DNA from: Marinobacter psychrophilus
GTDB taxonomy: Bacteria; Pseudomonadota; Gammaproteobacteria; Pseudomonadales; Oleiphilaceae
Length of the DNA: 64,000 nt
NCBI RefSeq assembly: GCF_001043175.1
Contig: NZ_CP011494.1
Coordinates: 1,674,001 to 1,738,000, forward strand
Reading direction: 5' to 3'
This document shows positions 45,867-61,587 of the stretch, in pieces. Within the stretch, counting starts at the first letter, position 1; each line of letters opens with the position of its first letter. The notes beneath the pieces are model-generated. The model did no database searches. It had not been told where the DNA came from and saw only the letters and a program-made list of their open reading frames with translations. The position numbers and the translations under genes were made by a program.

Positions 45867-46193
45867 ATAGATTTTCTCCAGTAATGTTGGGTGTTTCAGG
45901 CATGACGCGAGTCACAAAAAGCGGCGACTATAGAATGGGACCAAAGGGGCCTTGGAAAGTTCGCCTAGCGGCCACCGGCGTGCTGGCTGAAAGACTTGGG
46001 TAAGGTGGTGAAGAGCGGGACGGGATCGCACGACAATGCTTGAAACGAGGCATACCGACGGTTCCCTGTCTGTTTGCTCAATACTCCAAAACTGGCCTGG
46101 TTTGGGGTTTACTTCGGCTATAGTCAACGTGTCCCCAACACAAACATCAAAAAATTGGCGACTCGAGTCAGTTAACCTAAAGGCACCGCTTCT
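45867..46193. other. Intergenic region with an IS1182-type end remnant
   Basis: 327 bases between the broken HPF gene and the pentapeptide gene. The stretch 46037-46130 is a diverged copy of the IS1182-type end at 49.6-49.7 kb. The rest presumably holds the pentapeptide promoter; no gene is seen. Confidence 0.5.
46037..46130 (-). mobile_element. IS1182-type transposase end remnant
   Basis: About 94 bases match 49626-49717 at roughly 70 percent by eye, including TGCTTGAAACGAGGC, which on the minus strand encodes the first codons (MPRFK) of the transposase, and the upstream TTTGCTCAAT stretch. It is the left-over 5' end of a second copy of the element. Confidence 0.6.
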
Positions 46194-47144
46194 ATGATAT
46201 TTACTGCAGGCGTCAAACGCACCAGTCTACTTGCAGCAGCATTGATGCTCTCACTCGCCGCAACAACAACTGCAAACGCAGCCTGCTCAGACCCAGCCGC
46301 ACTGGGCGTTGACTGGGAAGGGTGCGAACTGAAGAGCGCTTATCTGATCGGCGTGAACCTGACCGGTGCGAATTTGACCAGCGTGAACCTGACCAGCGCA
46401 GAACTGGGTGGAGCCAATCTGCTCGACGTAGACCTGACAAATGCGAATCTGACCAGTGCGAACCTGAGAGCGGCGAATCTGAGCAATGCGGACCTGACCA
46501 ACGCGAACCTGACCAACACGCAGCTGGGCGGGGCGTACCTGACACAAGTGAACCTGAGCGGTGCGAACCTGACTGGCGCGAACCTGAACCGCACGACCAT
46601 GCAAAAGTCGAGCCTGAGAGACGCGGAGCTGAGAGGCGCGAACCTGAGATTCGCCGACTTGGAAGGTGCGAACCTGATTTCTGCGGACATGAGTTACGCG
46701 GACATGACCAGCGTGAACCTGATCAAAGCAAACCTGCACAACGCGAACCTGAGTAACGCGTACCTGAGCGGCGCGAAAATGCAATACGTTGGCATGGGCA
46801 GCGCAAACCTGGTTCGCGCAGACATGAGAGACGTTAATCTGAACTTGGCTAGCCTGTCCCACTCGGACATGGACAGCGTGAACCTGACCAACTCTAAACT
46901 GAGAGGCACGAACCTGACCGAAGTGAACCTGCAAAACGCGATCCTGAGCGGCGCGGACCTGAGTGGCGCGAACCTGAGCGGCGCATATCTGTTTGGCGCT
47001 GACCTGACCGGCGCGAACCTGACCGGCGTGGACTTGAGAGGCGCAGACCTGGCGACCGCGAACCTGAACGGTACGAACCTGGGCGGTGCACTCTGGGTTA
47101 ACGGTATGCAATGCGCCAAGGTGTCCATCGGTGGATGTAAGTAG
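46194..47144 (+). CDS. Secreted pentapeptide-repeat protein
   Basis: 316 residues. A signal peptide ends near ANA-ACS (about residue 29). From about residue 45 to 300 the chain is a nearly unbroken series of A(N/D)LXX pentapeptides, about 50 of them, which should wind into a right-handed quadrilateral beta-helix. A short cap with two cysteines (QCAKVSIGGC) ends it. Cytoplasmic relatives such as Qnr/MfpA mimic DNA, but an exported one cannot act on gyrase in its own cell, so its role is open. The DNA itself is repetitive (GCG AAC CTG), which keeps other frames open by chance. Confidence 0.9.
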   Translation: MIFTAGVKRTSLLAAALMLSLAATTTANAACSDPAALGVDWEGCELKSAYLIGVNLTGANLTSVNLTSAELGGANLLDVDLTNANLTSANLRAANLSNADLTNANLTNTQLGGAYLTQVNLSGANLTGANLNRTTMQKSSLRDAELRGANLRFADLEGANLISADMSYADMTSVNLIKANLHNANLSNAYLSGAKMQYVGMGSANLVRADMRDVNLNLASLSHSDMDSVNLTNSKLRGTNLTEVNLQNAILSGADLSGANLSGAYLFGADLTGANLTGVDLRGADLATANLNGTNLGGALWVNGMQCAKVSIGGCK

Positions 47145-48282: not shown

Positions 48283-49206
48283 TTACTGGTGCGCCAGCGC
48301 GTAGTCGATAGCCGCACACACTGCGGTAGCCTGTGCAGTATTGCATTGCTCGGGCGTTGTACGGGGGCTGTCGGGATAGACCTCAGTGGTGGTTTTGTAT
48401 GGGGCGCTGGTGATACTGGCACACAGGCCCAGCTGCTTGAGCGGATACTGTATAACGCCCCGAGCGACCACCGGTGAGCCGATGAGCTCGCCGCTGTCAT
48501 CGGCCGGAGCGATATGAGTGACTTGCTCCACCGCCTTGATCACCGCCTGTTGAAACTCAGGCTGCGGGTTCTCGCTGTCATCGACCAGATAGAAGCCATT
48601 GGGAATCCCAGCCGGCTCGAACGGCTTGCCGTCGCGGGCCGCCAGCGCGGGACGAAACTCGGTTTCGTCGGTATCGGTGGTTTCGTGCAGGTCGATATGC
48701 ATCAGTACTTTATCGCGAACGGGCGCCACCAGTCGCATCAGCGCCGCCGACTCCTCAGCCGGACTGCCATGGCAGAACGAGCGGTTCGGGTCGACCGCGT
48801 TCGGGTTCCAACGATGAATGCGCTCGTAAGCCCAAGGGCTAACACAGGGCACAACCAGCAAGTTGACGCGGCCCGCGTAATCCGCCGCATGCTGATCGAC
48901 AAACTGCAGCGCACCTTGTACACCGCTGGTTTCATAGCCGTGTACTCCGCCCGTTATCAGCACGACGGGCAGATTGTCACGCCAGTCGCGACTCCGGATC
49001 GCCATCAGCGGATAGCTTTCGGAGCCATAGTCCAGACGGCCATACTGTTCCACGTCGAAGCGCGGGCGCAGGCGCTCGGTCACACTCAACACCTCGGACT
49101 CGTAGCTGCGTTGCCGGGGCCGTCGTGACAACCACTCTGCGCGTTCCACGTCGCCCCAAGGAGCGTCGGGCGTACCGATCGGATAAGGTGCGGTCGTTGT
49201 GCTCAT
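48283..49206 (-). CDS. M14-family metallopeptidase / acyl-amidohydrolase
   Basis: 307 residues. The zinc pair appears as HGYE in LITGGVHGYETSG at about residues 89-92, and MHIDLHETTD carries the third ligand; RWNPNAVDPNRSF holds the substrate-binding NR motif. This matches M14 carboxypeptidase-like and succinylglutamate-desuccinylase-like enzymes, which cut a C-terminal residue or an N-acyl group. No signal peptide, so cytoplasmic. It stands alone, so the substrate is unknown. Confidence 0.85.
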   Translation of the reverse strand: MSTTTAPYPIGTPDAPWGDVERAEWLSRRPRQRSYESEVLSVTERLRPRFDVEQYGRLDYGSESYPLMAIRSRDWRDNLPVVLITGGVHGYETSGVQGALQFVDQHAADYAGRVNLLVVPCVSPWAYERIHRWNPNAVDPNRSFCHGSPAEESAALMRLVAPVRDKVLMHIDLHETTDTDETEFRPALAARDGKPFEPAGIPNGFYLVDDSENPQPEFQQAVIKAVEQVTHIAPADDSGELIGSPVVARGVIQYPLKQLGLCASITSAPYKTTTEVYPDSPRTTPEQCNTAQATAVCAAIDYALAHQ

Positions 49207-49717
49207 ATCGTTCTTCTCCAGTGATGGCGAATGCTTGGGCTTTGCGTCTCCGCCTCATCCCGCTTGTGATGCCTATGCAGGTGGTGGCGAATCAATCGTT
49301 TCAGCTTATCCCGTTTTTCGCTCAGTTTTTTAAAAGGGCCAGACCATTCCTTCGCGGCTTCTGACGACATTTTGCAGCCATCGATGGCAAACAGCTCGTT
49401 GCTCAGAAGGCCCTGTTCATGGAATACCAGCAGTACTTGCTAAAACAGCTCTTCGATCTCATCGGCGTGCTGGCTGACGAACCTGGCCAGGGTGGTGAAA
49501 TGCGAGACGGTATCGCAGGACAGCGCTTTGAAGATTATGTTGGTCTCAAAAGCACCACTGGATCTCGCGGCTGGAGCTGCTCTTAGTGGTTGATGACCAC
49601 CATCGAATCTTGATCGTAGTTGTAGTGCTTGAAACGAGGCACTCCGACGCCTCTTTATCAGTTTGCTCAATGCTACCAAAATCAGTCTGACTTGGGTTTT
49701 TTCTACAGCCTCAACGT
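49207..49717 (-). mobile_element. IS1182-type transposase remnant
   Basis: Minus-strand pieces of one transposase: the start PRFKHYNYDQDSMVVIN (around 49639-49580), then after a deletion and a frameshift ETNIIFKALSCDTVSHFTT (about 49555-49495), an in-frame TAG at 49440, and LLSNELFAIDGCKMSS...AAKEWSG (to about 49320). The order and words match IS1182-family transposases. About 80 residues are missing near the start. The upstream end of the element (49626-49717) is repeated at 46.0 kb. It cannot move by itself. Confidence 0.8.
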
Positions 49718-49785
49718 TTAGGTTAAGGGACTGGCTTTAGCCAGTTCCAGTGAGCGAAGCGAACAATTTGAACCATTTTTAGGCT
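49708..49785 (-). repeat. Possible degenerate attC of cassette 7
   Basis: GCCTCAAC at the left and TTTTAGGC at the right, with a hairpin-forming centre (GGACTGGC / GCCAGTTCC). The gene stop lies in the right core, as in other cassettes. The left core overlaps the IS1182-type end, so this call is weak. Confidence 0.35.
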
Positions 49786-50307
49786 TCGCTGGGATGGCTT
49801 TGAATTTTTCCTTTCTCTCCATAGCTCGATTCCCACTCCACTACAACACCGAGCCTTTTCGATAGCTGGCTGGAAAAACCTTTAATGTCATCCTTTATTC
49901 GTTTTCTTGTTTCTTTATTCGCTGGCAATTCGTATTTGAGACCATCCCACTTGATTTCTATAATTGAGCATTTCTCATCTTTTGAAATGGCGCTTCCTGG
50001 CTTGAGCTTGGTTATATATACCGAATTCCGAAGGAAGCTTTTCAATAACATTAAGAAGTTCTTTAAATTCGACTGCAACCCCATCTAAATAGTACGTTGT
50101 TGATTTTATCAGTGCAGGGCCTAGCCCTTTGTTTGTAATATAAAATCCGCATATAAAATTTACTGAGTCTATCTCTATTAACTCATATAGGTGCGGCCTA
50201 ACGGTTAGCTTATTGTGTTTTCTGCTACTAGTAATCGACCATAAGGCAACAAATAAAGCGAGTATTGCAATAGTCGATTTTGGATCAAATAGTTCTGTAA
50301 AGGTCAT
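49779..50307 (-). pseudogene. Cassette 7: membrane-anchored hypothetical, probably frameshifted
   Basis: Two overlapping frames look like one protein. The first (from 50307, AAGGAAG ribosome site) has a membrane span and FICGFYITNKGLGPALIKS; the second runs from about 50040 to the stop at 49779 with KCSIIEIKWDGLKYELP. They meet at a TATATATA run (about 50014-50021), where a one- or two-base slip would join them as ...PSEFGIYITKLKPG. It could be a true frameshift or a sequence error. No family recognised. Confidence 0.55.
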
Positions 50308-50401
50308 ACGCTATCTTCCTTGTAGGCATAACGCCCAAAGCAGCAGAACGAAAAGCCGTAGGTTTTTGTGTGGACTTCCCCAATAAAATGCACACGCCCC
50401 A

Positions 50402-50827
50402 TCAGTTAATTCCTTCGAACTTAATCGGATTCCGGTAACCAAGGCCATTGTGCAGCCGTTGGGTATTATAAAAGCCCTCAATATAGGCTTTTATATGTTT
50501 TCGTAATTGCCGCATTGTCACGAAGCTGGTTGCATGCAGCAATTCTCCCTTGAGGGTCTTGAAGAACGACTCCACCTCCGCATTATCAGTGCACTGGCCG
50601 GGGCGATTCATGCTGTGCCGTACCCGGTGTTGATTCAGCAAAGCCTGTGTTTTGTGAGCGCGGTATTCGATGCCACGATCCGTATGGAGCAACAGGTCTG
50701 ACACTGGTTTCCGGCTAGTGAAAGCCTCGCGGAGTGTGGCTCGGGCAAAGTCTGCACTCAGATTCTCTCCCAGCCGCCAACTGATGACGCGTCGTGAATA
50801 CAGATCCAGCACTACGGCCAGGAACAC
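50402..50827 (-). pseudogene. IS3-family transposase OrfB, C-terminal part
   Basis: 141 codons are open, and the frame also reads back through SSDVTYIKLDEKYV to the orfA stop. The DDE catalytic core is partly seen: VVLDLYSRRVISW, LLHTDRGIEY (second aspartate), and CTDNAEVESFFKTLKGE with the glutamate. The N-terminal 130 or so residues, including the HTH-like region, are missing, so the enzyme is inactive. Confidence 0.88.
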
Positions 50828-50866
50828 ATATTTTTCATCCAGCTTTATGTAGGTGACATCACTGCT

Positions 50867-51112
50867 TCACTGCTGGTTCGTTTGTTCCTGTATCTTCTTT
50901 TTGGCGTCTACTGGCGCTTTCTTGACCCGTTTCATGGCGAATTTTCCCTCTCGGTACTCCTTACGCCAGCGTGACAGCATGAAAGGGTGAATATCCAGCG
51001 CTTCGGCAACGCTTTTCACACTGCGATGGGCCTGGTGGCTCCATTCCACCGCTTTGACTTTGAACTCAGTGCTGTACCGCTGAGTTTTCTTCCCCGTGAT
51101 CATCTCCGGCAT
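50867..51112 (-). CDS. IS3-family OrfA, truncated
   Basis: 81 residues with the transposase helix-turn-helix: RYSTEFKVKAVEWS, then VKSVAEALDIHPFMLSRWRKEYREG. It stops with TGA and the following bases continue in the same frame into OrfB, showing that a deletion of several hundred bases removed the OrfA end and the OrfB start. In an intact element a -1 frameshift would make OrfAB. Confidence 0.82.
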   Translation of the reverse strand: MPEMITGKKTQRYSTEFKVKAVEWSHQAHRSVKSVAEALDIHPFMLSRWRKEYREGKFAMKRVKKAPVDAKKKIQEQTNQQ

Positions 51113-51189
51113 CGCTTTGCTCCTCTTGCAGAGTTATCGATGCGTGTCCACTAAACCGGGGGAAGTCCAAGGTCGATTTGATGGCTTTG

Positions 51190-52104
51190 TTAGCATTTAT
51201 TATTGTGCTGGCTCTTTAAATGCTTTTTTAGGTTCTTGGGGTTTAATTTAATATTGCACTCTGGGCAATTTATATACGCTCTAGTATTTTCAACTCTCTC
51301 AGCTTCCACTAAGAAGTCATTGCTACCCGAACCACCACCCTGATTAACACTCCGGTCTAAAGGCGTTTCCCCCACAGGAAACTTATTACAAATAGATTCA
51401 AATGCTTTTTTACAAACCGACTCAATACCAGGAGCCAACTGCATTGCTGTTACACCCATCAATTCTAGATCGAGCATAACGTTGCTCCTTTCTTTAACCG
51501 ATAAAGTATATTTCTTTAAAAACGTTCTTTCTTTTGTCTCGTTTAATCTAACGTGAGCCTCTGGGTCTGCACAATTTGTAAACCAAAATATTCCTTGTTG
51601 TAACATTTGCTTGTGATTATTTCTAAACGTTGGCCTAAGAATAGTAACGTGACCTTCATTTTCATCATCGTATTGATATATCTGTTTAAAGGTATTCATC
51701 CATTGATTCTGATCGAAACTATAAAGTGCTACTTCTTCAGATACGGGCTCAAAGTGGTTCACACCTTCAAATGCGAAATAAGCTGCAACATATGGAGAAA
51801 ATGACCAATCGAGTAAAGGCGTAGGAAAACCATTGTGTTGTAAAAATGCAATAAACTGCGCCATTTCAATTGGATCTGATAAGTCTCTATTTTTCCCATC
51901 CCATGCTTCGACTTGTTCTTGAATTTGAGGAATCACAAAGACGAAGTAGGCTTTAAAATCTTCAAACGTTCGAACTTGCTTTGTCCTATGGATTGACGTT
52001 TGTAGCATCCAGGATGAGTTCGACTGCCCTCGATAAATGTATTGACTGCGAGATTTTATATCCTCAGTGACAAGATTTTTATATTCTTCCCAGGTTACTT
52101 TCAT
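51190..52104 (-). CDS. Cassette 6: FRG-domain protein with C-terminal zinc finger
   Basis: 304 residues. The FRG domain is clear: YIYRGQSNSSWMLQTSIHR at 22-40 and LLDWSFSPYVAAYFAF at 97-112. A C2H2-type finger (C280, C283, H295, H300) ends the protein. FRG domains are found in genes of defence islands and toxin-like loci, but their biochemical action is not well known. GGAG precedes the ATG. The stop codon lies in the attC core. Role in defence is an inference from domain and setting. Confidence 0.8.
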   Translation of the reverse strand: MKVTWEEYKNLVTEDIKSRSQYIYRGQSNSSWMLQTSIHRTKQVRTFEDFKAYFVFVIPQIQEQVEAWDGKNRDLSDPIEMAQFIAFLQHNGFPTPLLDWSFSPYVAAYFAFEGVNHFEPVSEEVALYSFDQNQWMNTFKQIYQYDDENEGHVTILRPTFRNNHKQMLQQGIFWFTNCADPEAHVRLNETKERTFLKKYTLSVKERSNVMLDLELMGVTAMQLAPGIESVCKKAFESICNKFPVGETPLDRSVNQGGGSGSNDFLVEAERVENTRAYINCPECNIKLNPKNLKKHLKSQHNNKC

Positions 52105-52120
52105 CGCTACTCCTTTTAGA

Positions 52121-52172
52121 TGCTAACGCATTAATCAGCCGCTGCGTCAGCAGTCAGCTGCATTTAATTGTC
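52121..52172 (-). repeat. Probable short attC of cassette 5
   Basis: TGCTAAC at the left and TTGTCAT at the right bound about 52 bases with the centre CAGCCGCTGCGTCAGCAG able to self-pair. Both cores deviate from consensus, so it is a degenerate site. Confidence 0.45.
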
Positions 52173-52712
52173 ATGTTCTGGGGAGACCAAAGACTCAATC
52201 ATCTGATCATAGGCACGTTGGCGTAGCTGAACAGCCAGCATTACCGAGCTAAAGATCACGAGCAAAAATCCCGCTACTGAAGAGGCCCCCTCACTCATTC
52301 CCATTACAGTTAATGACACGAGCAGTAAGCCGCCATAAACGAAAATAGAAAAATGCGTGAACCAACAATCTATATAGCGAAATACCTTATTCCGACCTAC
52401 GTTGGTGTATTGAAACGTACCATTCTTAAAGGAGATAATCCCAGGAGTTTTTTTAAGCGCGTATATTATTTTTGAACAACCATCATGTTTGACTAATTCG
52501 GCCACATCACTGTAGTTCATCTTAAGGCCATGTATAAGTCTGAAAAGCTCGGTGGTGGAGTGTTTTCTCTCCCTACTGATCGCTTCTTCAAACTTCTCGA
52601 GGAGTTCGGCCTTCACCTTCCTAGCTTGGCCCATGTTGTAAAAAATGAGAGCCATAGTTCCAAACGAAGAAATGGCGCCAAATACACGTTTTGTTGCAAT
52701 ATTAAAGTCCAT
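52164..52712 (-). CDS. Cassette 5: hypothetical membrane protein
   Basis: 182 residues. An N-terminal span, a cytoplasmic helical part (about 30-105) and two spans in the C-terminal third (HFSIFVYGGLLLVSLTVMG and VAGFLLVIFSSVMLAVQL). No family recognised. The ribosome site is weak. Two-span proteins of this kind are common in cassette arrays and sometimes act as membrane effectors; here nothing more can be said. Confidence 0.65.
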   Translation of the reverse strand: MDFNIATKRVFGAISSFGTMALIFYNMGQARKVKAELLEKFEEAISRERKHSTTELFRLIHGLKMNYSDVAELVKHDGCSKIIYALKKTPGIISFKNGTFQYTNVGRNKVFRYIDCWFTHFSIFVYGGLLLVSLTVMGMSEGASSVAGFLLVIFSSVMLAVQLRQRAYDQMIESLVSPEHDN

Positions 52713-52729
52713 TTTTTAAATCTCAGTGA

Positions 52730-52832
52730 AAATAACACCTGCATAAACGGCGGCTTTTACGCAGCAAAGCGGAGAAAAAGCCGTCCGGTGGAGCCTCTTC
52801 GGGCCGGAACGAATTTAATGCATTTGTCAGGC
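52730..52832 (-). repeat. attC site of cassette 4
   Basis: Left core AAATAAC (52730-52736), right core GTCAGGC (52826-52832, one base off GTTAGGC). The outer arms pair (TGCAT-AAA with TTTAATGCA) and the inner arms GGCTTTT / AAAAAGCC. 103 bases. Confidence 0.65.
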
Positions 52833-52833
52833 A

Positions 52834-53397
52834 TTATCTCCATCTAGGGAATACAAGCTTTCCGTGCCTGGCTCTAGGAAAACCATACTTTGGTGCGAAA
52901 TTTCTATACCAGAGTACTTGTCCCCGACAATGTTCGATAAATTTGGAGTCATTCCAAAGCATTTTCATATCTTTTTTGTCTAGCCGTTTTCCAGTTTCTT
53001 CCTTATGCATATCAGAAAAAACCCGACCTGTGTAAGGATTCAGTTTAGGCCACTCTCTAGTTTTGGATTTGTAATGACCATGCGGTACCGACGGGTAGCA
53101 ATCCCTATCACCAATGGTGAACATCCACTGATTCATCATCAGTAATTCAAACCACGGTGGTTCATTGCTTTCAGATTTACTAGTGCCGTCCACTTCATCC
53201 TTGTTAGCGTTCTCGTTTGAATAATCCGATTCTGGATTAGCCGGTTTGCCCTCAGGATTTGATATTCTTGGATCAGCGTCGCGATCATCGGTATCTATTA
53301 ACCAATCAGCAACTTTACACCGCTCACAGTATTCGGAATAGCCAATTATTCCTGTCATAAAGCTTATGTCTGATAGTAGTTTTATATATTGAGACAT
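52834..53397 (-). CDS. Cassette 4: hypothetical protein
   Basis: 187 residues, soluble. A Cys pair (YCERC near residue 23) opens it, then a low-complexity acidic stretch rich in Asn, Glu and Ser (about 45-75), then an aromatic-rich domain with PSVPHGHYKSKTREWPKLNPYTGRVF and a final basic tail. The PHGHYK...NPYTG pattern with conserved His and Lys could be an active site but I know no match. The ATG at 53397 is used, as the upstream in-frame start at 53439 lies in the neighbouring attC. Confidence 0.6.
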   Translation of the reverse strand: MSQYIKLLSDISFMTGIIGYSEYCERCKVADWLIDTDDRDADPRISNPEGKPANPESDYSNENANKDEVDGTSKSESNEPPWFELLMMNQWMFTIGDRDCYPSVPHGHYKSKTREWPKLNPYTGRVFSDMHKEETGKRLDKKDMKMLWNDSKFIEHCRGQVLWYRNFAPKYGFPRARHGKLVFPRWR

Positions 53398-53421
53398 ATA
53401 ACTCTCTGATTTAATTGGGCC

Positions 53422-53519
53422 GCCTAACGCCTCAATCACCGGATTGGTAAAGTTAGCGGATTTTTTGGAGCAAAAAATGTGACTACTTTGGCAAGTCCGA
53501 GTGCATTGACTTGTTATAT
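53422..53519 (-). repeat. attC site of the ParA-SIR2 cassette
   Basis: GCCTAAC (53422-53428) to GTTATAT (53513-53519), 98 bases. The arms align as TCAAT, CAC, CGGA, TTG on both sides with single extra bases on one strand, the extrahelical bases expected in attC. Confidence 0.8.
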
Positions 53520-53529
53520 TCTTTTACAC

Positions 53530-54396
53530 TTACCATTGCCCATTTCTAGTAAGCTCAAATCGAACTCCTTCAACGTCTGTAACGAGGTCAGCTAAGGACA
53601 AGGAAAGCTCTTCATGTCCATTATCTGAAGAGTATTCAACAAATTTAATACGCATAGAAGCTGAAGCAACCTCTAACACATCATTATGAACTTCCCCTTT
53701 AGGTAATGTCATATAATGATATGGCATACGTCCATGTGTAAATTGAAGGTCTTCAAAAAGCTGCCTAATATCAGGGTCATCTGTCCCACAGCCTAGAAAT
53801 AGAAAAGTGTGTGTTAATGCTAGTGATTTTAAAATCTCATAAAATAAAACATACTTAGTCCTAGCTTCGGCATAATCGTTTCTTGTGAAAATAATTTCTG
53901 TTGGGTTATTCGCTGAACCATGTGTCTTGATAATTAGACGCTTATCCCCACCCAATAAATAGTTAGCTATGTCACTACTTGTATGATCTTTGATAACCAC
54001 AGAGCTAGCTGATTCAGAAGAGGCATATGTATCATAAATATTGTCGAAATTTGGGCTTGCTACAATCGATGAATCTAATTTGTAAATTTGCTCATGAATA
54101 GAAGCATGGCGGTAGCCTGAGCGTTGATATTCTTGTTGTACTTTCTCTGTAAAGTCATCAGCTCCCATTCTTTCTTTAATCAACTCACAAGCAGTTAAGA
54201 AGTCTTTTTGGGAAATCAAAGTATTAATATGATCTACATCGGTTAAGTTGCTTACGCAATTCTTTAAAAAGTCTTCCCATGTATCTGGCCTTTTCCCTTT
54301 TGCATTAGTGGAGTTTCTAGAAACACCAGCACCTAAAACTATTACACAACGTCTACGAGCAATTGCATTAATAATCGAGTTATCCCAACTAATCAT
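53530..54396 (-). CDS. Cassette 3b: SIR2-like domain protein
   Basis: 288 residues, almost only a SIR2_2-type domain. NAD-site features are GAGVS at 22-26, the catalytic asparagine in SPNFDNIYD (N116), the catalytic histidine in IIKTHGS (H159), then IIFTRNDY and LFLGCGTDDPDIRQLF (202 onward). Such domains in bacterial defence systems (Thoeris ThsA, DSR, SPARSA) are NADases that starve infected cells. Its ATG overlaps the ParA stop (ATGA), so both proteins are made together. NAD depletion triggered through the ATPase is inferred. Confidence 0.88.
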   Translation of the reverse strand: MISWDNSIINAIARRRCVIVLGAGVSRNSTNAKGKRPDTWEDFLKNCVSNLTDVDHINTLISQKDFLTACELIKERMGADDFTEKVQQEYQRSGYRHASIHEQIYKLDSSIVASPNFDNIYDTYASSESASSVVIKDHTSSDIANYLLGGDKRLIIKTHGSANNPTEIIFTRNDYAEARTKYVLFYEILKSLALTHTFLFLGCGTDDPDIRQLFEDLQFTHGRMPYHYMTLPKGEVHNDVLEVASASMRIKFVEYSSDNGHEELSLSLADLVTDVEGVRFELTRNGQW

Positions 54397-55385
54397 TCAA
54401 ACAACCTCGCATATAACACTTCTGAAATACTATGAAAATATTCACCAGCTTCAGATACCCGTGTATATTGAGAGCCAACTATTCCATCTTGCGCGCCTAA
54501 CGAAAAAACTGGGGCATGGGCTTGCTGTGAGAGAGGCACTACACTACTAAGCGTTGGTATTACACCTAAATCTACATCGCTTTGATTTACATTAAATGCA
54601 GAGCACAGGTTAGCTATTTCATCTTTCTGCTTCTCAATTATTCGCTCAAATGCTTGAACTGGCTGTCTTATACCTCCTTTTGTTTTTGCTTTATACTGTT
54701 GCATCACATAGCCTAGGAATTTTAAGTCCCACGTAATATCTTTATTTTCAATTTGAAAATTGTAACCCTCATCACGGTGGTGTTTAGCTATTGCATCTTC
54801 TAAACTTTGACGCCAGTTATCAAACGAGCTTATTATGTTCCCTACAGCCATTAAGCTAAATATATCCACTGACAATGGCATTAAAAAATAATCTACAGCT
54901 AATAATACCGAGCGATTTAATGCTCCTAAAGATGGCCCCATATCCACTAATACTAAATCATAATTATTTAAACGAGAGAGCAACTCTTTTATAGCATATG
55001 TCGTTTGAAACCCTCTAGACTCTCCATTTCTTGTTGAAGCCCAATCTGTCGCTAATAAATCCTCCCTAATAGATAATTTAGGGTCTCCTACAATTAGGTC
55101 AACTTTAAACCTTTCACTACGAACTATTGTAGGCATCTCAATTGGATAGCCTTGCCCTCTTCGGATAGGCTCATAAAATGAGTCCAAACTATTGTGTTTA
55201 TTATCTAATAATATTTTTTCAAGTTCCTCCTCAGGAAGGAGGTAGGCTGAGGCGTTACATTGTGGATCAGCATCAACAATCAACACTTTCAGTTTTTTAT
55301 TTACAGCCAAGGATGAGGCTAAATTACATATTAATGTTGTTTTACCTACGCCGCCCTTGTTATTAAAAAAACCGATACTTTTCAT
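54393..55385 (-). CDS. Cassette 3a: ParA/MinD-like ATPase
   Basis: 330 residues. It begins with the deviant Walker A NNKGGVGKTT (residues 8-17), followed by VLIVDADPQCN near 34 and DLVLVDMGPSLGALNR near 145. The C-terminal 100 residues, with QQYKAKTKGGIRQPVQAFERI, are longer than in plasmid ParA. No ParB or parS is nearby and the gene sits in an integron cassette with SIR2, so plasmid partition is unlikely. AGGG lies 7 bases before the ATG. I propose a sensor or switch for the SIR2 partner. Confidence 0.88.
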   Translation of the reverse strand: MKSIGFFNNKGGVGKTTLICNLASSLAVNKKLKVLIVDADPQCNASAYLLPEEELEKILLDNKHNSLDSFYEPIRRGQGYPIEMPTIVRSERFKVDLIVGDPKLSIREDLLATDWASTRNGESRGFQTTYAIKELLSRLNNYDLVLVDMGPSLGALNRSVLLAVDYFLMPLSVDIFSLMAVGNIISSFDNWRQSLEDAIAKHHRDEGYNFQIENKDITWDLKFLGYVMQQYKAKTKGGIRQPVQAFERIIEKQKDEIANLCSAFNVNQSDVDLGVIPTLSSVVPLSQQAHAPVFSLGAQDGIVGSQYTRVSEAGEYFHSISEVLYARLFE

Positions 55386-55418
55386 TTTTACCCTTTAAAA
55401 ATTGAATTATAATAAAAA

Positions 55419-55487
55419 ACATAACGTCTGCGTCATGGATGACGAAAAGTGCAGCTTTTTGGCATCCCATGCACGCACTTGTTAGGC
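55419..55487 (-). repeat. attC site of the nuclease cassette
   Basis: ACATAAC (55419-55425) to a perfect GTTAGGC (55481-55487), 69 bases. The arms TGCGT-CATGG-ATG and CATCCCATGCACGCA pair with single unpaired bases, a textbook attC. Confidence 0.88.
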
Positions 55488-55489
55488 TC

Positions 55490-56923
55490 TTATTCAATTA
55501 AACGTGACCATAGATTTTTTAAAATAGTGTAGCTTCGATCTTCTGAATCTTTCTTATATGCTTCGACCATTTCAAAAATGTCATCATCGCCTAGCGCGAG
55601 CATGTAACCACGTCGATCTTTAGCTGTATCAATGCAGCGCTGGTATAGCCTTTCTTTGTTATCAATAGATCGGCATATCAATATCCCTACCTGTCCTCTG
55701 CTTGGTGAAAACCGACCCGCGAGCTGATCAATTTCTGGATTACCTACTTCTTTACCATAATTCTTGCACTCTATGAAAATTAAGGCACATGGATAGTGTA
55801 AAGATAGCCAATAAAAGAAACCGCTCTTAGCTTCATTCGTGTAAGTTATATCAATACGTTTCCTTCCATCGTGAATGTTATGCTGCTTTTTCGGATTGCA
55901 AAGTGAAGGATAAAGTATGACTGAAAGGATTTTTTCAACAAGATCTTCATAACGCCCTGCGGTTTCCTTTCCGGTAGCGAGTGCTTTTAATTCTTCAACT
56001 ATAGGGTCTAAATCGGGAAGATCTATTCCTTCGACTTCTGAAAACTGCTTTTGTGTAAGAGGTGTAGATGGACTGCCTGCTTTCTGATCTTTATATTCTT
56101 GTAGTATTTGCGGCCTAACCTTAGTCTGTTCAACAACTGAGAGTTTATCGTTGCCATACTTTTCCATTAGAGCTTTTTTAGTTACTCGCTCACTTCCATC
56201 TTTAAGAACTTCAACTAAGGAAGAGTGTGCAGCAAGGTGTTCGTGTTGCATTTCAGGAAGTATATAGTGACGGTAATATTCATCATATTGGTAAGTTAAT
56301 CGGTGGCGAACCAATATTTTTGGGACCAAAATAACTTTGCCATATTCAGTCATGGGAAGTGGAATTAGTGATTCTTCCCATGCTTCATTCTGTGGGTTCC
56401 AGATAGGCCCAGAAGCGACATCTGGGGTTAGTGTAATTCCATAGTAAATACACATATCTTGAGTGTACTTTATTAATGGCCCCCGAATGATGTTACTTAC
56501 TGCATCAGAAATCATATCTGTTCCGATACCAGGAATAAGTAATGCAGCGTCCTCTAAATCTTTGAGGAGCCCAGTTACCGCTGCATTACTCTTGCTTAAA
56601 GCTCCCCACACGGTCTCTGCCGAACCAGATCCAAACCCATGACCTCTAGATCTCCCTGATGAATATCCAAGGTGAAACTCGTTTCGCTCACTGAGAGAAG
56701 TAAGTAGTTGCTGAGCTTTTGTATGATTGCCAGAATTAATTAATCGTAAAACAGTATCAAAAAAAGTTTGTAGCATTGACGATAGTTCTGATCCCCACGG
56801 TGATCGTAAAGCTTTTATTGCACAAGGCTCCAGAAATACAGGGAGGTCTGTATCGAGAGGAATATCCACGAAATCCAAATATGGTTGTGTTCTATTTAAT
56901 TTAAAATGCTCTGAAAATTTCAT
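55490..56923 (-). CDS. Cassette 2: protein with C-terminal PD-(D/E)XK-like nuclease motif
   Basis: 477 residues. The C-terminal part has a restriction-endonuclease pattern: an aspartate in GRKRIDITYTN (D358) and E-C-K in LIFIECKNYGKE (E385, K387), followed by EIDQLAGRF, as in Mrr-like enzymes. The first 340 residues are unfamiliar and include a Gly/Ser/Arg-rich stretch (GYSSGRSRGHGFGSG near 98). The ATG at 56923 has GAGGG ahead; 13 more upstream residues are open but fall in the attC. A DNA-cutting defence role is likely, by motif only. Confidence 0.75.
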   Translation of the reverse strand: MKFSEHFKLNRTQPYLDFVDIPLDTDLPVFLEPCAIKALRSPWGSELSSMLQTFFDTVLRLINSGNHTKAQQLLTSLSERNEFHLGYSSGRSRGHGFGSGSAETVWGALSKSNAAVTGLLKDLEDAALLIPGIGTDMISDAVSNIIRGPLIKYTQDMCIYYGITLTPDVASGPIWNPQNEAWEESLIPLPMTEYGKVILVPKILVRHRLTYQYDEYYRHYILPEMQHEHLAAHSSLVEVLKDGSERVTKKALMEKYGNDKLSVVEQTKVRPQILQEYKDQKAGSPSTPLTQKQFSEVEGIDLPDLDPIVEELKALATGKETAGRYEDLVEKILSVILYPSLCNPKKQHNIHDGRKRIDITYTNEAKSGFFYWLSLHYPCALIFIECKNYGKEVGNPEIDQLAGRFSPSRGQVGILICRSIDNKERLYQRCIDTAKDRRGYMLALGDDDIFEMVEAYKKDSEDRSYTILKNLWSRLIE

Positions 56924-56944
56924 TGTTCCCTCAATCTCCGTGGA

Positions 56945-57016
56945 GCCTAACGCCTTGCTCACCGGAAAATTGGGAGCGCAGCGAGTGATTTTTCCGCGTG
57001 CAGCAACTTGTTATGC
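56945..57016 (-). repeat. attC site of the SEFIR cassette
   Basis: GCCTAAC (56945-56951) to GTTATGC (57010-57016), 72 bases. CACCGGAAAA pairs with TTTTCCGCGTG leaving one extra base, and GCCTTGCT with AGCAACTT. The gene stop lies in the right core. Confidence 0.85.
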
Positions 57017-58447
57017 CTTTGTTGCTAATTGTTCATAGCCTAGCAATACCGATGGGCTAAATGAATCAAACTGCCACCTTGGCAACCTATTTCGATCGGT
57101 TTTATAAGCCTCCATCAACTCATTGAGGTCTGTTGGTTTATCTATGCCGAGAAGGCATTTTGATTTTTCAAAGTATGACTTAGATGAAGATCTCGCGAAC
57201 ACCTCAAGTGCGCTGTGAAACCGACCAATATAAACTAAGGTGTCTGGAAACCAGCGGGAGTAAAAATCAGACTGTTGTACTTCGGCTCTCATGAACAATA
57301 TAAAATCAGCTTGCATAAGGTGTCTAAACTCAATCCCTGAATGTTTGCTACGTTGCTCCAGTAGATCAGCATGCAGTGATAGTCGATTCAATTTTAACCG
57401 AGTATTCCTATGCTCCAACGACCTTAAGTGTGCTCGAAAAGCATCGTAACCCACCATCACATCTTTGCCGTAATCGGATTGACCCGGTACATAATATTCT
57501 TGATTCAATAGAAGGTTAACTTCTGAGAACTTTTCATGCTTTATAAGAATGGCTACTAAGTAGAGAAAAAGTTCGTGTGCAATAAACTTGAAGTTGTCGA
57601 AGTCCCATTTACTCCAACTATTCACGCTTTCAGGCTTATTCATATAAGGTATTAATGCCTCGAAAAAACGATGCAATTTCGAAATATTTTCTTCCGTTGG
57701 CGCGTATTGCGCTAACGCTACAAACAAAGAAATAGCTTCATTTCGATACGGGATAAATTTCTCAAGGCTATCTATTACTTGATCGTCAAACTCACCATCT
57801 TTATCTGTAATTCTAAATTTCTCTAGATTACTCACAAATGTCGTCAAATATTCATCTAGAACACCTGATAAAAATGGCTTATTTTCTTTAATTGCTGATA
57901 GCGCTCTTTTGTGGGTTGCAGTAGTCCCTAATGAAATACCTTCTGATTCCTCTAAAAATGACGGTCGCTTTCCTACTTCTGGCCTTGTATAAAGAGGCTT
58001 GTCATATATCCATCGCAATAATTTTTCGAAGTTGTCTGCGTAATTATCAGGCTCACTCAGATCTATATATATCCTAGATTTATAGTATGTTGGTAAAAAT
58101 GCTTTACCTTGATCATCTTTTTCAGGAATGATTGCTACAAATTTTCCTTGCTCCTGATTTTCATATACCTCACGTGAGATGATCTGCGTTTCAGTTCCCA
58201 CACCTCCCGACCGACCATCTGCTTTTGATGCATAAACTTCATCGCATACAATTGCCACTTTTGATATTTCAGGGTCAGTAACCATCTTTTCCATGAAAGC
58301 TACAGAATCATGGCCTTCCTTAAGATCCCACTTATCTAGAATGACATGAATGCCAGATTCGGTTAACTCGTTTGCTAGCTCAATAACCCATTGCTCATGT
58401 GTTGGATTAGACCAACTATAAGATATAAATAATTTTGGGGTTTCCAT
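57011..58447 (-). CDS. Cassette 1: SEFIR/TIR-like domain protein
   Basis: 478 residues. The N-terminus is a SEFIR domain (KLFISYSWSNPTHEQWV at 5-21, then VILDKWDLKEGHD near 35-47 and VAIVCDEVYASKAD), a TIR relative found in bacterial immune-type proteins. About residues 175-478 are helical, with no family I know. TIR-like domains in defence genes often cleave NAD or make signals; SEFIR chemistry in bacteria is less clear. The stop lies in the attC core. The ribosome site is weak (GGAT). Confidence 0.8.
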   Translation of the reverse strand: METPKLFISYSWSNPTHEQWVIELANELTESGIHVILDKWDLKEGHDSVAFMEKMVTDPEISKVAIVCDEVYASKADGRSGGVGTETQIISREVYENQEQGKFVAIIPEKDDQGKAFLPTYYKSRIYIDLSEPDNYADNFEKLLRWIYDKPLYTRPEVGKRPSFLEESEGISLGTTATHKRALSAIKENKPFLSGVLDEYLTTFVSNLEKFRITDKDGEFDDQVIDSLEKFIPYRNEAISLFVALAQYAPTEENISKLHRFFEALIPYMNKPESVNSWSKWDFDNFKFIAHELFLYLVAILIKHEKFSEVNLLLNQEYYVPGQSDYGKDVMVGYDAFRAHLRSLEHRNTRLKLNRLSLHADLLEQRSKHSGIEFRHLMQADFILFMRAEVQQSDFYSRWFPDTLVYIGRFHSALEVFARSSSKSYFEKSKCLLGIDKPTDLNELMEAYKTDRNRLPRWQFDSFSPSVLLGYEQLATKA

Positions 58448-58468
58448 CAGAGTTTAATCCCTTAGTGG

Positions 58469-58475
58469 GCATAAC
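58469..58475 (-). other. Lone core site at the upstream end of the array
   Basis: GCATAAC reads GTTATGC on the minus strand, immediately ahead of the SEFIR gene. It marks the 5' edge of that cassette and would be the join to an attI or to a lost cassette. No matching second core was found up to nrdJb. Confidence 0.5.
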
Positions 58476-58676
58476 AGCGTATTGGACAGCGTCCTTTATG
58501 ATTGAATCATCTGACATCTTCGTTTTCGCCCATCACGATTACGCAGTTTCCAGGCAACTCATCCATAAAACTATTCTAAAAACAGAAAATTATTACCCTT
58601 ACATCGTCAAACTTTGTAATATCACAACGCAATAACGAAGCTGCCACGCGATTACTCAAAATACAAGCTGCTATCC

Positions 58677-58712
58677 AAAAAAAAGGCCCGAAGCAAAACC
58701 CCGGGCCTTTTT
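58677..58712 (-). terminator. Rho-independent terminator after nrdJb
   Basis: AAGGCCCG and CGGGCCTT form an 8-bp stem with an 11-base loop, with A-rich and T-rich flanks on both sides, so it can stop transcripts from either direction. It is 22 bases past the nrdJb stop. Confidence 0.88.
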
Positions 58713-58734
58713 CTCACTTCATTGCGCTATCAAC

Positions 58735-59421
58735 CTAACCACACTTACTATCACCACAATTCAAGCAAGTTGCACAGCCATCCATCACAATTACGGCTTT
58801 GGTGCTGCACTTGCCACACGTGGTGGCGTTGGGTGGGAAGTCACCGGACGTGTCGTCGTTGGTGGCTTTGCTCTGGTTGGCTTCAAAATCAGCCCGCTTT
58901 TCAGCCAGTATGCGCTTGGTGTTGTCGCTCATTTCTTCGCTTTCCATCAGGCCAACGGCCTTCAGGTGCTTTTCAATCACGGCACCAATTTCGGCGACCA
59001 GTGAGGGCATGAACACGCCGCCTTTTTTGAAGTAGCCGCCGTTGGGGTCGTATACCGAGCGCAGTTCTTCCACCAGGAAGGTCAGGTCGCCGCCTTTGCG
59101 GAATACCGCAGAGATGACGCGAGTGAGGGCGATAACCCACTGGAAGTGTTCCATCGACTTGGAGTTGATGAACACTTCGTAGGGCTGGCGGCTTTCGTGG
59201 TCGGTGTCTTCGTTCAGCAGAATGTCATTAATCGTAATGTACATTGCGTGCTCCGCCACCGGCGGTTTGATTTTGTAGGTGGTGCCCAACAAAAACTCTG
59301 GCCGCTCGATGTATTCGTTCATCTTAACGAGCGTGCTTTCTACAGCCGGCGCGGGCTGATTGTTTTCGTCGGCTTTGGTTACCCGATAACCGACGATTTT
59401 GTTGCTAATTTTTACTGTCAT
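58735..59421 (-). CDS. nrdJb: Class II ribonucleotide reductase, NrdJb subunit
   Basis: 228 residues. It corresponds to the C-terminal portion of the vitamin B12-dependent reductase, which is split into two genes here as in Pseudomonas aeruginosa. It begins with a strand segment, has SMEHFQWVIALTRVISAVFRKGGD, and ends with a cysteine-rich tail CGKC...CATCLNCGDSKC that should bind zinc and shuttle electrons to the active site. It lies 27 bases after nrdJa. Confidence 0.9.
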   Translation of the reverse strand: MTVKISNKIVGYRVTKADENNQPAPAVESTLVKMNEYIERPEFLLGTTYKIKPPVAEHAMYITINDILLNEDTDHESRQPYEVFINSKSMEHFQWVIALTRVISAVFRKGGDLTFLVEELRSVYDPNGGYFKKGGVFMPSLVAEIGAVIEKHLKAVGLMESEEMSDNTKRILAEKRADFEANQSKATNDDTSGDFPPNATTCGKCSTKAVIVMDGCATCLNCGDSKCG

Positions 59422-59448
59422 GTCTGTGTTCCTGTGTCGGTTTTCGGA

Positions 59449-61587
59449 TCAATACTTTCCGTAAGTGCCTTCTTTCAAAGCATCAAACAGGTTAGCGGCG
59501 GAGTGAATTTCGCCGTCGTAATCGACCTGTTCGTTACCCTTCAGTTTTACTTTGGTGCCATCGTCCAGGGTGAATTCGTAGACGGTGTTTTCCAAATCGG
59601 ACTCTTTGACCAGTACGCCCTGGAAGGCTTCTGCGTTGAAGCGGAAGGTGGTGCAACCTTTCAGGCCTTTGTCAAAGGCGTACAGGTAAATGTCTTTGAA
59701 GTTCTTGTAAGGGAAGTCTGTAGGCACGTTGGCGGTTTTGGAGATAGACGAATCTATCCACAACTGGGCTGCGGCCTGGATGTCTACGTGCTGGGCCGGG
59801 GTTACGTCATCTGAGGTGGTGAAGTAATCCGGCAGTTTTTTATCAGCGTCGTCTGAGAACGGCATGGCGCCCGGGTTGCTCAGGTGGCGGTAGGCCAGCA
59901 ACTCGAAGGAGAACACGTCGACTTTCTCTTTGGTTTTACGGCCTTCGCGAATGATGTTGCGGGCGTAATGGTGCGAGAAGCTTGGCTCTATGCCGTTACT
60001 GGCGTTGTTGGCCAGTGACAAGCTGATCGTGCCGGTAGGCGCGATGGAGGTGTGGTGGGTAAAGCGGCCACCTTTTTCGGCCAGTTGTGCCACCAGCTCC
60101 GGTTCTACTTCAGCGATGCGCTGCATGTAGCGGCTGTATTTGGCGTGCAACACGCGGCCTTTAAGCTTGTCGCCCAGGTTGTAGCCGTCGGCTGTCAGCT
60201 GCGGGCATTTGCCCAGCAATTTCGGGGTAATTTCGAATTCGTCGTCCATGATCGGCGCCGCGCCTTTTTCTTTGCCCAGGGCCAGGGACTGGCGCCAGCC
60301 TTCTACGGCCATTTCACGTACGACGTCTTCGGTGAACACCACGGATTCTTCAGAACCGTAAGGCATACGCAGCATGGCAAGGGTAGAGCCCAGGCCCAGA
60401 ATGCCCATGCCGTGGCGGCGCTTGTAGGTAATTTCGTGGCGTTGTTGCGCCAGCGGAAGGCCGTTGATTTCCACAACGTTGTCTAGCATGCGGGTGAAGA
60501 TGCCAACGACTTTTTTGTACTTTTCATAGTTAAAGCTGGCTTTGTCTGTGAACGGGTAGTCCACGAACATGGTCAGGTTTACCGAGCCCAGCAGGCAGCT
60601 GCCGTAAGGGGGCAGGGGCTGTTCGCCGCATGGGTTGGTGGCGCGAATGTCCTCGCAGAACCAGTTGTTGTTCATCTGGTTTACTTTGTCGATCAGGATG
60701 AAACCTGGCTCGGCGTAGTCGTAGGTGGAGGTCATGATGGTGTCCCAGATGAACTGGGCTTTCAGGGTGCGGTAAATGCGGCAGGCTACTTTGCCTTCGG
60801 CGTTCATCATGTAGTCTTTTACGACCGGGAAGTCACGGTATACAAACTTGGTCGGGTCGGTCAGGTCCAGGCCTTCTTCTTCTACTTCTTTATCGGTCAC
60901 CGGGAAGGACAGGTTCCAGTCGGCGTCGTCACGTACGGCGTTGATGAAGTCTTCGGTGATCAGCAGCGACAGGTTGAACTGGCGCAGGCGGCCATCTTCA
61001 CGCTTGGCTTGAATGAAGTCGATGATGTCTGGGTGGTGAATGTCAAACGTAGCCATTTGAGCGCCGCGGCGGCCACCGGCTGATGACACGGTGAAGCACA
61101 TACGGTCGAAGATATCCATGAACGACAGCGGGCCGGATGTGGTGGCACCGGCGCCGGCGACGTAGGCACCGCGGGGGCGCAGGGTAGAGAATTCATAACC
61201 AATTCCACAGCCGGCTTTGAGCGTCAGGCCTGCTTCGTGGTTTTTCCCCAGAATGTCGTTCATAGAGTCGTTAATGTTGCCACTAACGGTGCAGTTAATC
61301 GTAGAGGTGGCAGGCTTGTGCGACCGTGCACCGGCGTTGGAAATAATGCGGCCGGCAGGAATGGCGCCGTGTTTCAGGGCCCAGGCGAAATCTTTGTAGT
61401 GTTTGGCGCGCAGGTCTTTGTTTTCGACTTCTGACAGGGCACGGGCTACGCGCTCATAGGTGGCTAGAATGTCTTTGTCGACGGCGTCGCCAGTTTTGGT
61501 TTTCAGCTGGTACTTGCTGTTCCAGATGTCGAGTGATGCGTCTTGCATCGGAATGGTTGTGACTAATGCTTGTGCTTTAGCGTTCAT
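59449..61587 (-). CDS. nrdJa: Class II (cobalamin-dependent) ribonucleotide reductase, NrdJa catalytic subunit
   Basis: 712 residues. It makes deoxynucleotides with or without oxygen using adenosylcobalamin. Motifs of the catalytic barrel are present: LKAGCGIGYEFSTLRPRGA, NPCGEQPLPPYGSCLLGSVNL with active-site cysteines, and PTGTISLSLANNASNGIEPSF. The ATG at 61587 has GAGGG ahead; the frame is open 63 bases upstream without family match. A possible NrdR box lies further upstream. No cobalamin riboswitch was recognised. Confidence 0.94.
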   Translation of the reverse strand: MNAKAQALVTTIPMQDASLDIWNSKYQLKTKTGDAVDKDILATYERVARALSEVENKDLRAKHYKDFAWALKHGAIPAGRIISNAGARSHKPATSTINCTVSGNINDSMNDILGKNHEAGLTLKAGCGIGYEFSTLRPRGAYVAGAGATTSGPLSFMDIFDRMCFTVSSAGGRRGAQMATFDIHHPDIIDFIQAKREDGRLRQFNLSLLITEDFINAVRDDADWNLSFPVTDKEVEEEGLDLTDPTKFVYRDFPVVKDYMMNAEGKVACRIYRTLKAQFIWDTIMTSTYDYAEPGFILIDKVNQMNNNWFCEDIRATNPCGEQPLPPYGSCLLGSVNLTMFVDYPFTDKASFNYEKYKKVVGIFTRMLDNVVEINGLPLAQQRHEITYKRRHGMGILGLGSTLAMLRMPYGSEESVVFTEDVVREMAVEGWRQSLALGKEKGAAPIMDDEFEITPKLLGKCPQLTADGYNLGDKLKGRVLHAKYSRYMQRIAEVEPELVAQLAEKGGRFTHHTSIAPTGTISLSLANNASNGIEPSFSHHYARNIIREGRKTKEKVDVFSFELLAYRHLSNPGAMPFSDDADKKLPDYFTTSDDVTPAQHVDIQAAAQLWIDSSISKTANVPTDFPYKNFKDIYLYAFDKGLKGCTTFRFNAEAFQGVLVKESDLENTVYEFTLDDGTKVKLKGNEQVDYDGEIHSAANLFDALKEGTYGKY

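Follow-up and report, generated by a model that had tools for sequence, protein, structure and literature searches.

Why should an ATPase of the ParA/MinD type, from a family annotated as chromosome or plasmid partitioning proteins, be encoded directly beside a SIR2 protein, when SIR2 NADases (enzymes that cleave nicotinamide adenine dinucleotide, NAD+) are known immune effectors? The question is raised by a gene pair in a 64,000-nucleotide stretch of Marinobacter psychrophilus DNA (contig NZ_CP011494.1, positions 1,674,001 to 1,738,000; hereafter the window), for which a preliminary description proposed an undescribed defence system. Here, we find that the ParA-type ATPase and the SIR2 protein form a conserved, nearly obligate two-gene unit, often in mobile contexts. 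With moderate confidence, we interpret the pair as a two-gene immune module, in which a ParA-type sensor or switch drives a SIR2 NADase. The module is real and widely spread, and probably immune, with an effector of a known kind and a partner that is new for it.

Both genes lie on the minus strand. The first, at 54393..55385, encodes the ATPase (330 amino acids), identified by its open reading frame (ORF), Pfam matches, conserved motifs and fold; the second, at 53530..54396, encodes a SIR2_2 protein of 288 amino acids with N116 and H159 intact, identified by ORF, Pfam, alignment and fold. They share the four nucleotides ATGA (54393..54396), which likely couples their translation, and the G+C content of the pair is 36.7%. 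Pfam assigns the ATPase to AAA_31 (1.6e-28) and CbiA (1.1e-14), and its partner to SIR2_2 (2.8e-19). The Walker A motif of the ATPase, FNNKGGVGKTT, is of the deviant type and contains K10 and K15; these two lysines and D40 are kept in 51/51 aligned ATPases. The protein thus shows the features of the deviant Walker A class, namely KGGVGKTT with the signature lysine, the conserved switch aspartate and a ParA fold. N116 and H159 are likewise invariant, in 53/53 aligned SIR2 proteins, and the features of SIR2 immune NADases are all present: the catalytic Asn and His, the NAD-binding GAG.S motif and the SIR2 fold. The SIR2 protein would be predicted to cleave NAD+. In each of these respects (the overlapping ORFs, the deviant Walker A motif and the intact SIR2 residues), the preliminary description was accurate.

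The fold of the SIR2 protein is that of ThsA, KomC and DSR2. In an alignment counted by hand, H159 corresponds to DSR2 H171, which is the position changed in the H171A entries, and N116 corresponds to DSR2 N133. The ATPase fold is of the ParA type and close to Soj. An entry of the PDB, 3PG5 (DIP2308 of C. diphtheriae, with no function given), matches the ATPase over its full length. PADLOC gave the ATPase only a weak PDC-M28B match over about 50 residues, and no system model beyond that.

The preliminary description called for a search for the same pair in other genomes. Using conserved SIR2 stretches to search 84,980 species genomes, we find the ATPase just upstream of SIR2 in all 47 confirmed genome loci; a scan of IMG/VR with SIR2 yields 19 loci on viral contigs, again with the ATPase upstream in 19/19. 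By record titles, some of them metagenome bins, the pair occurs in at least seven phyla (Pseudomonadota, Bacteroidota, Cyanobacteriota, Actinomycetota, Bacillota, Planctomycetota, Myxococcota, Poribacteria). SIR2 also matches 18 plasmid records, of which seven were fetched and nine, H10–H18 (21–31% identical), were left out; in records H7 and H8, ParA is present according to the listing. The ATPase is next door in six of the seven plasmid loci opened. The seventh, L007, encodes a distant SIR2 protein of 1048 amino acids (28% identical) without the ATPase, and is not counted as a pair. Within whole-genome samples the pair is rare and patchy, being present in 3/369 genomes of the class and 5/398 of the phylum, with the window's own genome included in each, and it was not found in three sampled congeners. 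Two more genomes match the SIR2 profile with longer proteins, G196 (a 651-amino-acid frame with a stop) and G405 (1204 amino acids); neither has a ParA match at E ≤ 1e-40.

Among 97 pair instances, a redundant set in which the start taken was whichever lay closest to the expected one, 83 overlap, 56 of them by exactly 4 nucleotides, and 13 lie 0–50 nucleotides apart; the one instance out of range has a broken SIR2 frame. The set contains copies, since a scan of viral contigs with the ATPase (75 loci) recovered every one of the 19 contigs already obtained with SIR2, and the window itself is counted twice. The set also contains loci cut by contig ends (L014, L034, L059), loci with broken frames (L016, L051, L065) and one, L050, that yields an 11-amino-acid SIR2 frame. 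Pairwise distances between the ATPases and between the SIR2 proteins are correlated over 52 loci (r = 0.82, as compared with ≤ 0.18 in 2000 permutations), a value that partly reflects shared host ancestry. Finally, one natural fusion, P0241 (640 amino acids), carries the ATPase followed by SIR2, 38% and 35% identical to the window proteins; it is the only two-domain protein in the best 120 of 1,704 matches to a query made of the window proteins end to end.

Mobile elements figure among the settings of the pair. A 130-nucleotide stretch finds relatives in 12/5,426 E. coli genomes, and the two of these twelve loci that were opened lie in P2-like prophages, where replication gene A and portal gene Q flank the pair. 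The A–Q interval of P2-like prophages is an anti-phage gene hotspot (Rousset et al., PMC9122126). One section of that paper names SIR2 in a legend, and no ParA–SIR2 system is seen there among the tested ones. A V. ponticus plasmid carries the pair at a distance of 2.6 kb from a separate parAB; immediately before the pair stands a fragment of ParB (L001:4626-4857) that is 69% identical to the plasmid's ParB. This arrangement implies that the ATPase of the pair is not the regular partition protein of that plasmid. Phage_integrase accounts for 6/124 upstream and 2/127 downstream ORFs beside the pair, among the families listed. In one Pseudomonas locus, an S-type pyocin with a cytotoxic domain (L036:11394-12524) is encoded about 0.5 kb downstream.

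Could the pair belong to one of the SIR2 systems already known? Thoeris, DSR, SIR2-HerA, SPARSA and KomBC were each considered and set aside, as partner or architecture differs. ThsA of Thoeris has a C-terminal STALD/SLOG domain, whereas the present protein has 288 amino acids and its match to ThsA covers positions 13–225 of 478; and the Thoeris partner, ThsB, is a TIR protein, in contrast to the ParA-type ATPase found here. The SEFIR/TIR gene of the window is two cassettes away from the pair. DSR1 and DSR2 are single proteins of about 1000 amino acids or more, with their own C-terminal sensor, unlike the short SIR2 protein and separate ATPase described here. The partner in KomBC, a HAM1-type protein ('HAM-SIR2' appears in a title), is likewise different from AAA_31. 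SIR2-HerA, also called PD-T7-2 or Nezha, is similar in that two genes encode an ATPase and a SIR2 protein, but HerA is a DUF87 protein, and DUF87 matches our ATPase only at E 0.19. As for SPARSA, neither an APAZ domain nor a short pAgo was found in the Pfam matches of the two proteins. The drivers of SIR2 NADases that are known to us are STAND domains, Argonaute, HerA, HAM1, TIR-made signals and phage tail proteins. The preliminary description knew of no SIR2 system with a ParA/MinD-type partner, and we too found no description of a ParA-SIR2 system among the matches listed from the 5.39 million open-access papers of the PMC library. None of the SIR2 systems in the table of PMC10952713 has a ParA partner.

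The immune reading is based on obligate pairing, co-inheritance, intact catalytic residues, the two folds, mobile contexts and the lack of a regular ParB partner. Under this reading, the role of sensor or switch would fall to the ATPase. When bound to ATP, it may form dimers that attach to the nucleic acid of an invader, or to a plasmid or phage component carried on that nucleic acid. The ATPase could then bring the co-translated SIR2 subunits together as an active oligomer or filament, a form adopted by several of the nearest SIR2 relatives (ThsA, KomC and Avs5), whereupon SIR2 would cut NAD+ and the infected cell would stop before the invader spreads. Direct contact between ATPase and SIR2, a trigger of this kind and an abortive outcome are all presumed here, and the pair would be predicted to confer phage protection together with loss of NAD. 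If this is correct, a ParA-type ATPase driving a SIR2 NADase represents a new class of sensor, and gives a function to a family whose annotation is that of proteins partitioning chromosomes or plasmids. The ParA-SIR2 reading can be tested directly, given the E. coli prophage members and the 3PG5 fold, which is solved but lacks an explanation.

A third gene accompanies some of the pairs. A DNA methyltransferase of the N6_N4 type is encoded directly downstream in 5/47 genome loci (L033, L034, L038, L040, L049), and a homologue lies directly upstream of the pair in a Salmonella plasmid locus and on 3/19 viral contigs; downstream- and upstream-placed enzymes are 40–42% identical. All these pairs are among the more divergent members, with SIR2 proteins 31–39% identical to that of the window, and the four methyltransferase loci placed in an ATPase tree lie in one 17-row branch without forming a single group. 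Finding one additional gene in two positions speaks for a third subunit with a function, and suggests a role for self-DNA methylation in the methyltransferase branch, where methylation may mark the DNA of the cell. The preliminary description would have been refuted had the pair never been conserved elsewhere, and in that respect it stands; it overlooked this branch, as it did the wider family, with several different neighbours, to which the ATPase belongs.

At E ≤ 1e-40, the ATPase profile has a match in 29/398 phylum genomes. We scored as a partner any blastx match (E ≤ 1e-4) to a small reference set anywhere in the fetched stretch, whose flanks measure about 1.5 kb on either side at genome loci and at most 6 kb at viral loci. 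By this measure, the 30 phylum-sample loci (one of 31 places gave no locus) have Schlafen-AlbA_2/HATPase_c_4 proteins at 19, SIR2 at 5, RelA/SpoT-type proteins at 4, HEPN at 1 and none at 1. The 13 class-sample loci without SIR2 have AlbA_2 (9), RelA/SpoT (2), HEPN (1) or none (1), and at the 57 loci on viral contigs, which include many that are more distant, the partners are RelA/SpoT (20), SIR2 (9), AlbA_2 (2) and HEPN (1), with none at 25. Pfam backs at least one member of each of the AlbA_2, RelA/SpoT and HEPN classes. An ATPase tree of 95 sequences (94 chosen by hand plus the window's, each labelled by eye for its partner according to the ORFs beside it) was built by a quick method with a long-branched outgroup. 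It places 45 SIR2-paired sequences on one side of a branch (99), ten AlbA_2-paired sequences together with one other (100), and 16/18 RelA/SpoT-paired sequences together with one other (99). Walker A and switch motifs are common to the partner groups, save that G14 is replaced by S in two HEPN-paired ATPases. A basic loop of low predicted local distance difference test score (pLDDT), residues 231–243, has K or R at position 234 in 45/45 SIR2-paired sequences; position 240 is R or K in 34/45 and the loop is shorter in AlbA-paired sequences, so that nothing firm follows about contact with partner or DNA.

Such an exchange of neighbours, with the ATPase as the fixed element, is the pattern expected of a sensor whose effectors are interchangeable. 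Tentatively, and with somewhat less than even confidence, we suggest that FNNKGGVGKT ParA-type ATPases are a general invader-sensing chassis for SIR2, Schlafen-AlbA_2, RelA/SpoT-type and HEPN effectors, to which one SIR2 branch adds a DNA methyltransferase for self-recognition. Were this so, the partition-type ATPase would be a new class of immune sensor with a modularity comparable to that of STAND proteins. AlbA_2 proteins, which form the most frequent class in the genome samples, may serve something other than defence. At L087-L099, L112-L168 and L183-L207, members of the ATPase superfamily adjoin Schlafen-AlbA_2/HATPase_c_4, RelA/SpoT-type or HEPN proteins, and these loci are possible immune or toxin modules. 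Two close relatives of the ATPase (P0304 and P0321, 43–44% identical) represent 203 and 357 contigs from gut Bacteroidales (Parabacteroides, Alistipes).

Several observations weigh against the immune reading. SIR2 was found in none of 50,697 records of isolated phages. Neighbours of the pair elsewhere give no clear defence-island signal: the commonest PADLOC family accounts for 2/124 upstream and 7/127 downstream ORFs (the latter methyltransferases), among families listed without a control set, namely 25 of 56 upstream and 25 of 97 downstream. The ATPase fold is common to MinD as well, and the more distant viral-contig loci of the superfamily include the 25 with no recognised partner. The fusion P0241 is a lone metagenomic sequence with an altered ATPase tail, and for both reasons may be a frameshift. 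It is also conceivable that the ATPase keeps SIR2 inactive, as in a toxin-antitoxin or addiction module that stabilises its array, plasmid or prophage. Two overlapping genes, mobile contexts and a cassette array would suit such a module, as would the RelA/SpoT- and HEPN-type proteins among the ATPase family neighbours, folds of this type being known from toxins. Since it leaves the invariant catalytic residues of the ATPase and the methyltransferase branch unexplained, we regard this as rather unlikely; it is in any case compatible with defence, as such modules can also defend.

The resemblance of the ATPase to partition proteins can be taken in two further ways. The more elaborate is a narrower version of the immune reading with a named trigger: the ATPase would mimic a partition ATPase as an anti-plasmid decoy, and would release SIR2 when an incoming plasmid or plasmid-prophage engages it through ParB or the partition complex. 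The closeness of the fold to Soj fits this idea, as does the separate parAB and ParB fragment near the V. ponticus pair, and an orphan chromosomal ParA-like protein, ParI, is reported to disturb partition of plasmid pCAR1 (PMC8544851), which makes an anti-plasmid role worth considering. The same V. ponticus plasmid, however, holds ParB and the pair together, and the two would have to tolerate each other; we consider the decoy improbable, a little more so than addiction. The simpler way is that the ATPase segregates DNA with SIR2 as a modifier, as the family annotation and the fold might suggest. A putative partitioning system is present in about one quarter of P2-like phages (Rousset et al., PMC9122126), and might include orphan ATPases of this superfamily. 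In contrast to ParA/Soj partition ATPases, the present one has no regular ParB companion, and SIR2 is its constant partner. A ParB function for the ATPase, which the preliminary description took to be incompatible with its proposal, finds no regular support near the 97 pair loci: the only matches of tblastn with three ParB queries, two of them judged to be ParB by eye, were to the V. ponticus plasmid, at that plasmid's parB and at the ParB fragment before the pair, and distant ParBs could be missed. The pair of M. psychrophilus is a cassette in the chromosome, and at least 1.7 Mb separates it from the ParB of that genome. We therefore reject partition as the main function, and as an account of the pair it is very improbable. 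Equally improbable, in our view, is that SIR2 regulates the ATPase as a protein deacylase or ADP-ribosyl enzyme and has nothing to do with immunity, even though some records annotate it as an NAD-dependent deacylase.

In the window, the pair occupies a single cassette, as the preliminary description had it. One attC-type site (55410..55486, minus strand) marks the end of the preceding cassette, 5′ of the pair, and another (53423..53523, minus strand) closes the ParA-SIR2 cassette. The plus (bottom) strand of both segments folds into a long hairpin with unpaired bases (z −4.4 and −5.2, respectively, with 0/200 shuffles as good in each case). These sites lie on both sides of the pair, in the same orientation as the neighbouring cassettes, as in an integron cassette. 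Because Rfam gave no match at gathering score over 49000-60000, attC sites were judged by folding and by eye, with boxes picked by eye from attC motifs. Four further candidate sites do not stand out against shuffles (z +1.1 to −2.2). One of them, at 56945..57016 (minus strand), has the same hairpin shape (z −1.1, 27/200 shuffles as good) and is a probable attC site between the next two cassettes; the others are 52724-52842 (z −2.2), 52115-52172 (z −1.8) and 51140-51196 (z +1.1).

The neighbouring cassettes, also on the minus strand, encode a PDC-M36A-like candidate defence protein (55490..56962; PADLOC 1.5e-45, with a weak Mrr_cat match, 0.0027, below cut-off) and a bSEFIR defence protein (57011..58447; PADLOC 1.5e-129, Pfam SEFIR 1.7e-15). 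Further along is an FRG-domain protein recognised by Pfam, of candidate defence class PDC-S15 (51190..52104, minus strand; PADLOC PDC-S15/FRG 6.2e-43). These genes and the pair form one run in one orientation, with a G+C content of 39.0% over 51190-58447 versus 54–55% in the flanks, and together make up a small defence array. Chromosomal integrons are already published as holders of defence genes (review PMC12409362), so that this context is expected for a defence module. The genome has an intact integron integrase (C1:3925952-3926881, 403 bits) 2.2 Mb from the window along the contig, or 1.8 Mb if circular, and a broken piece with two internal stops (C1:1995601-1996011) at 0.27 Mb, which leaves the run without a working integrase nearby. 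Elsewhere in the window, an ORF of 316 amino acids (46194-47144) has a 15-nucleotide period that would give a protein of five-residue repeats, and two repeated stretches about 3.5 kb apart (45973-46091 and 49460-49680) are 78–80% identical.
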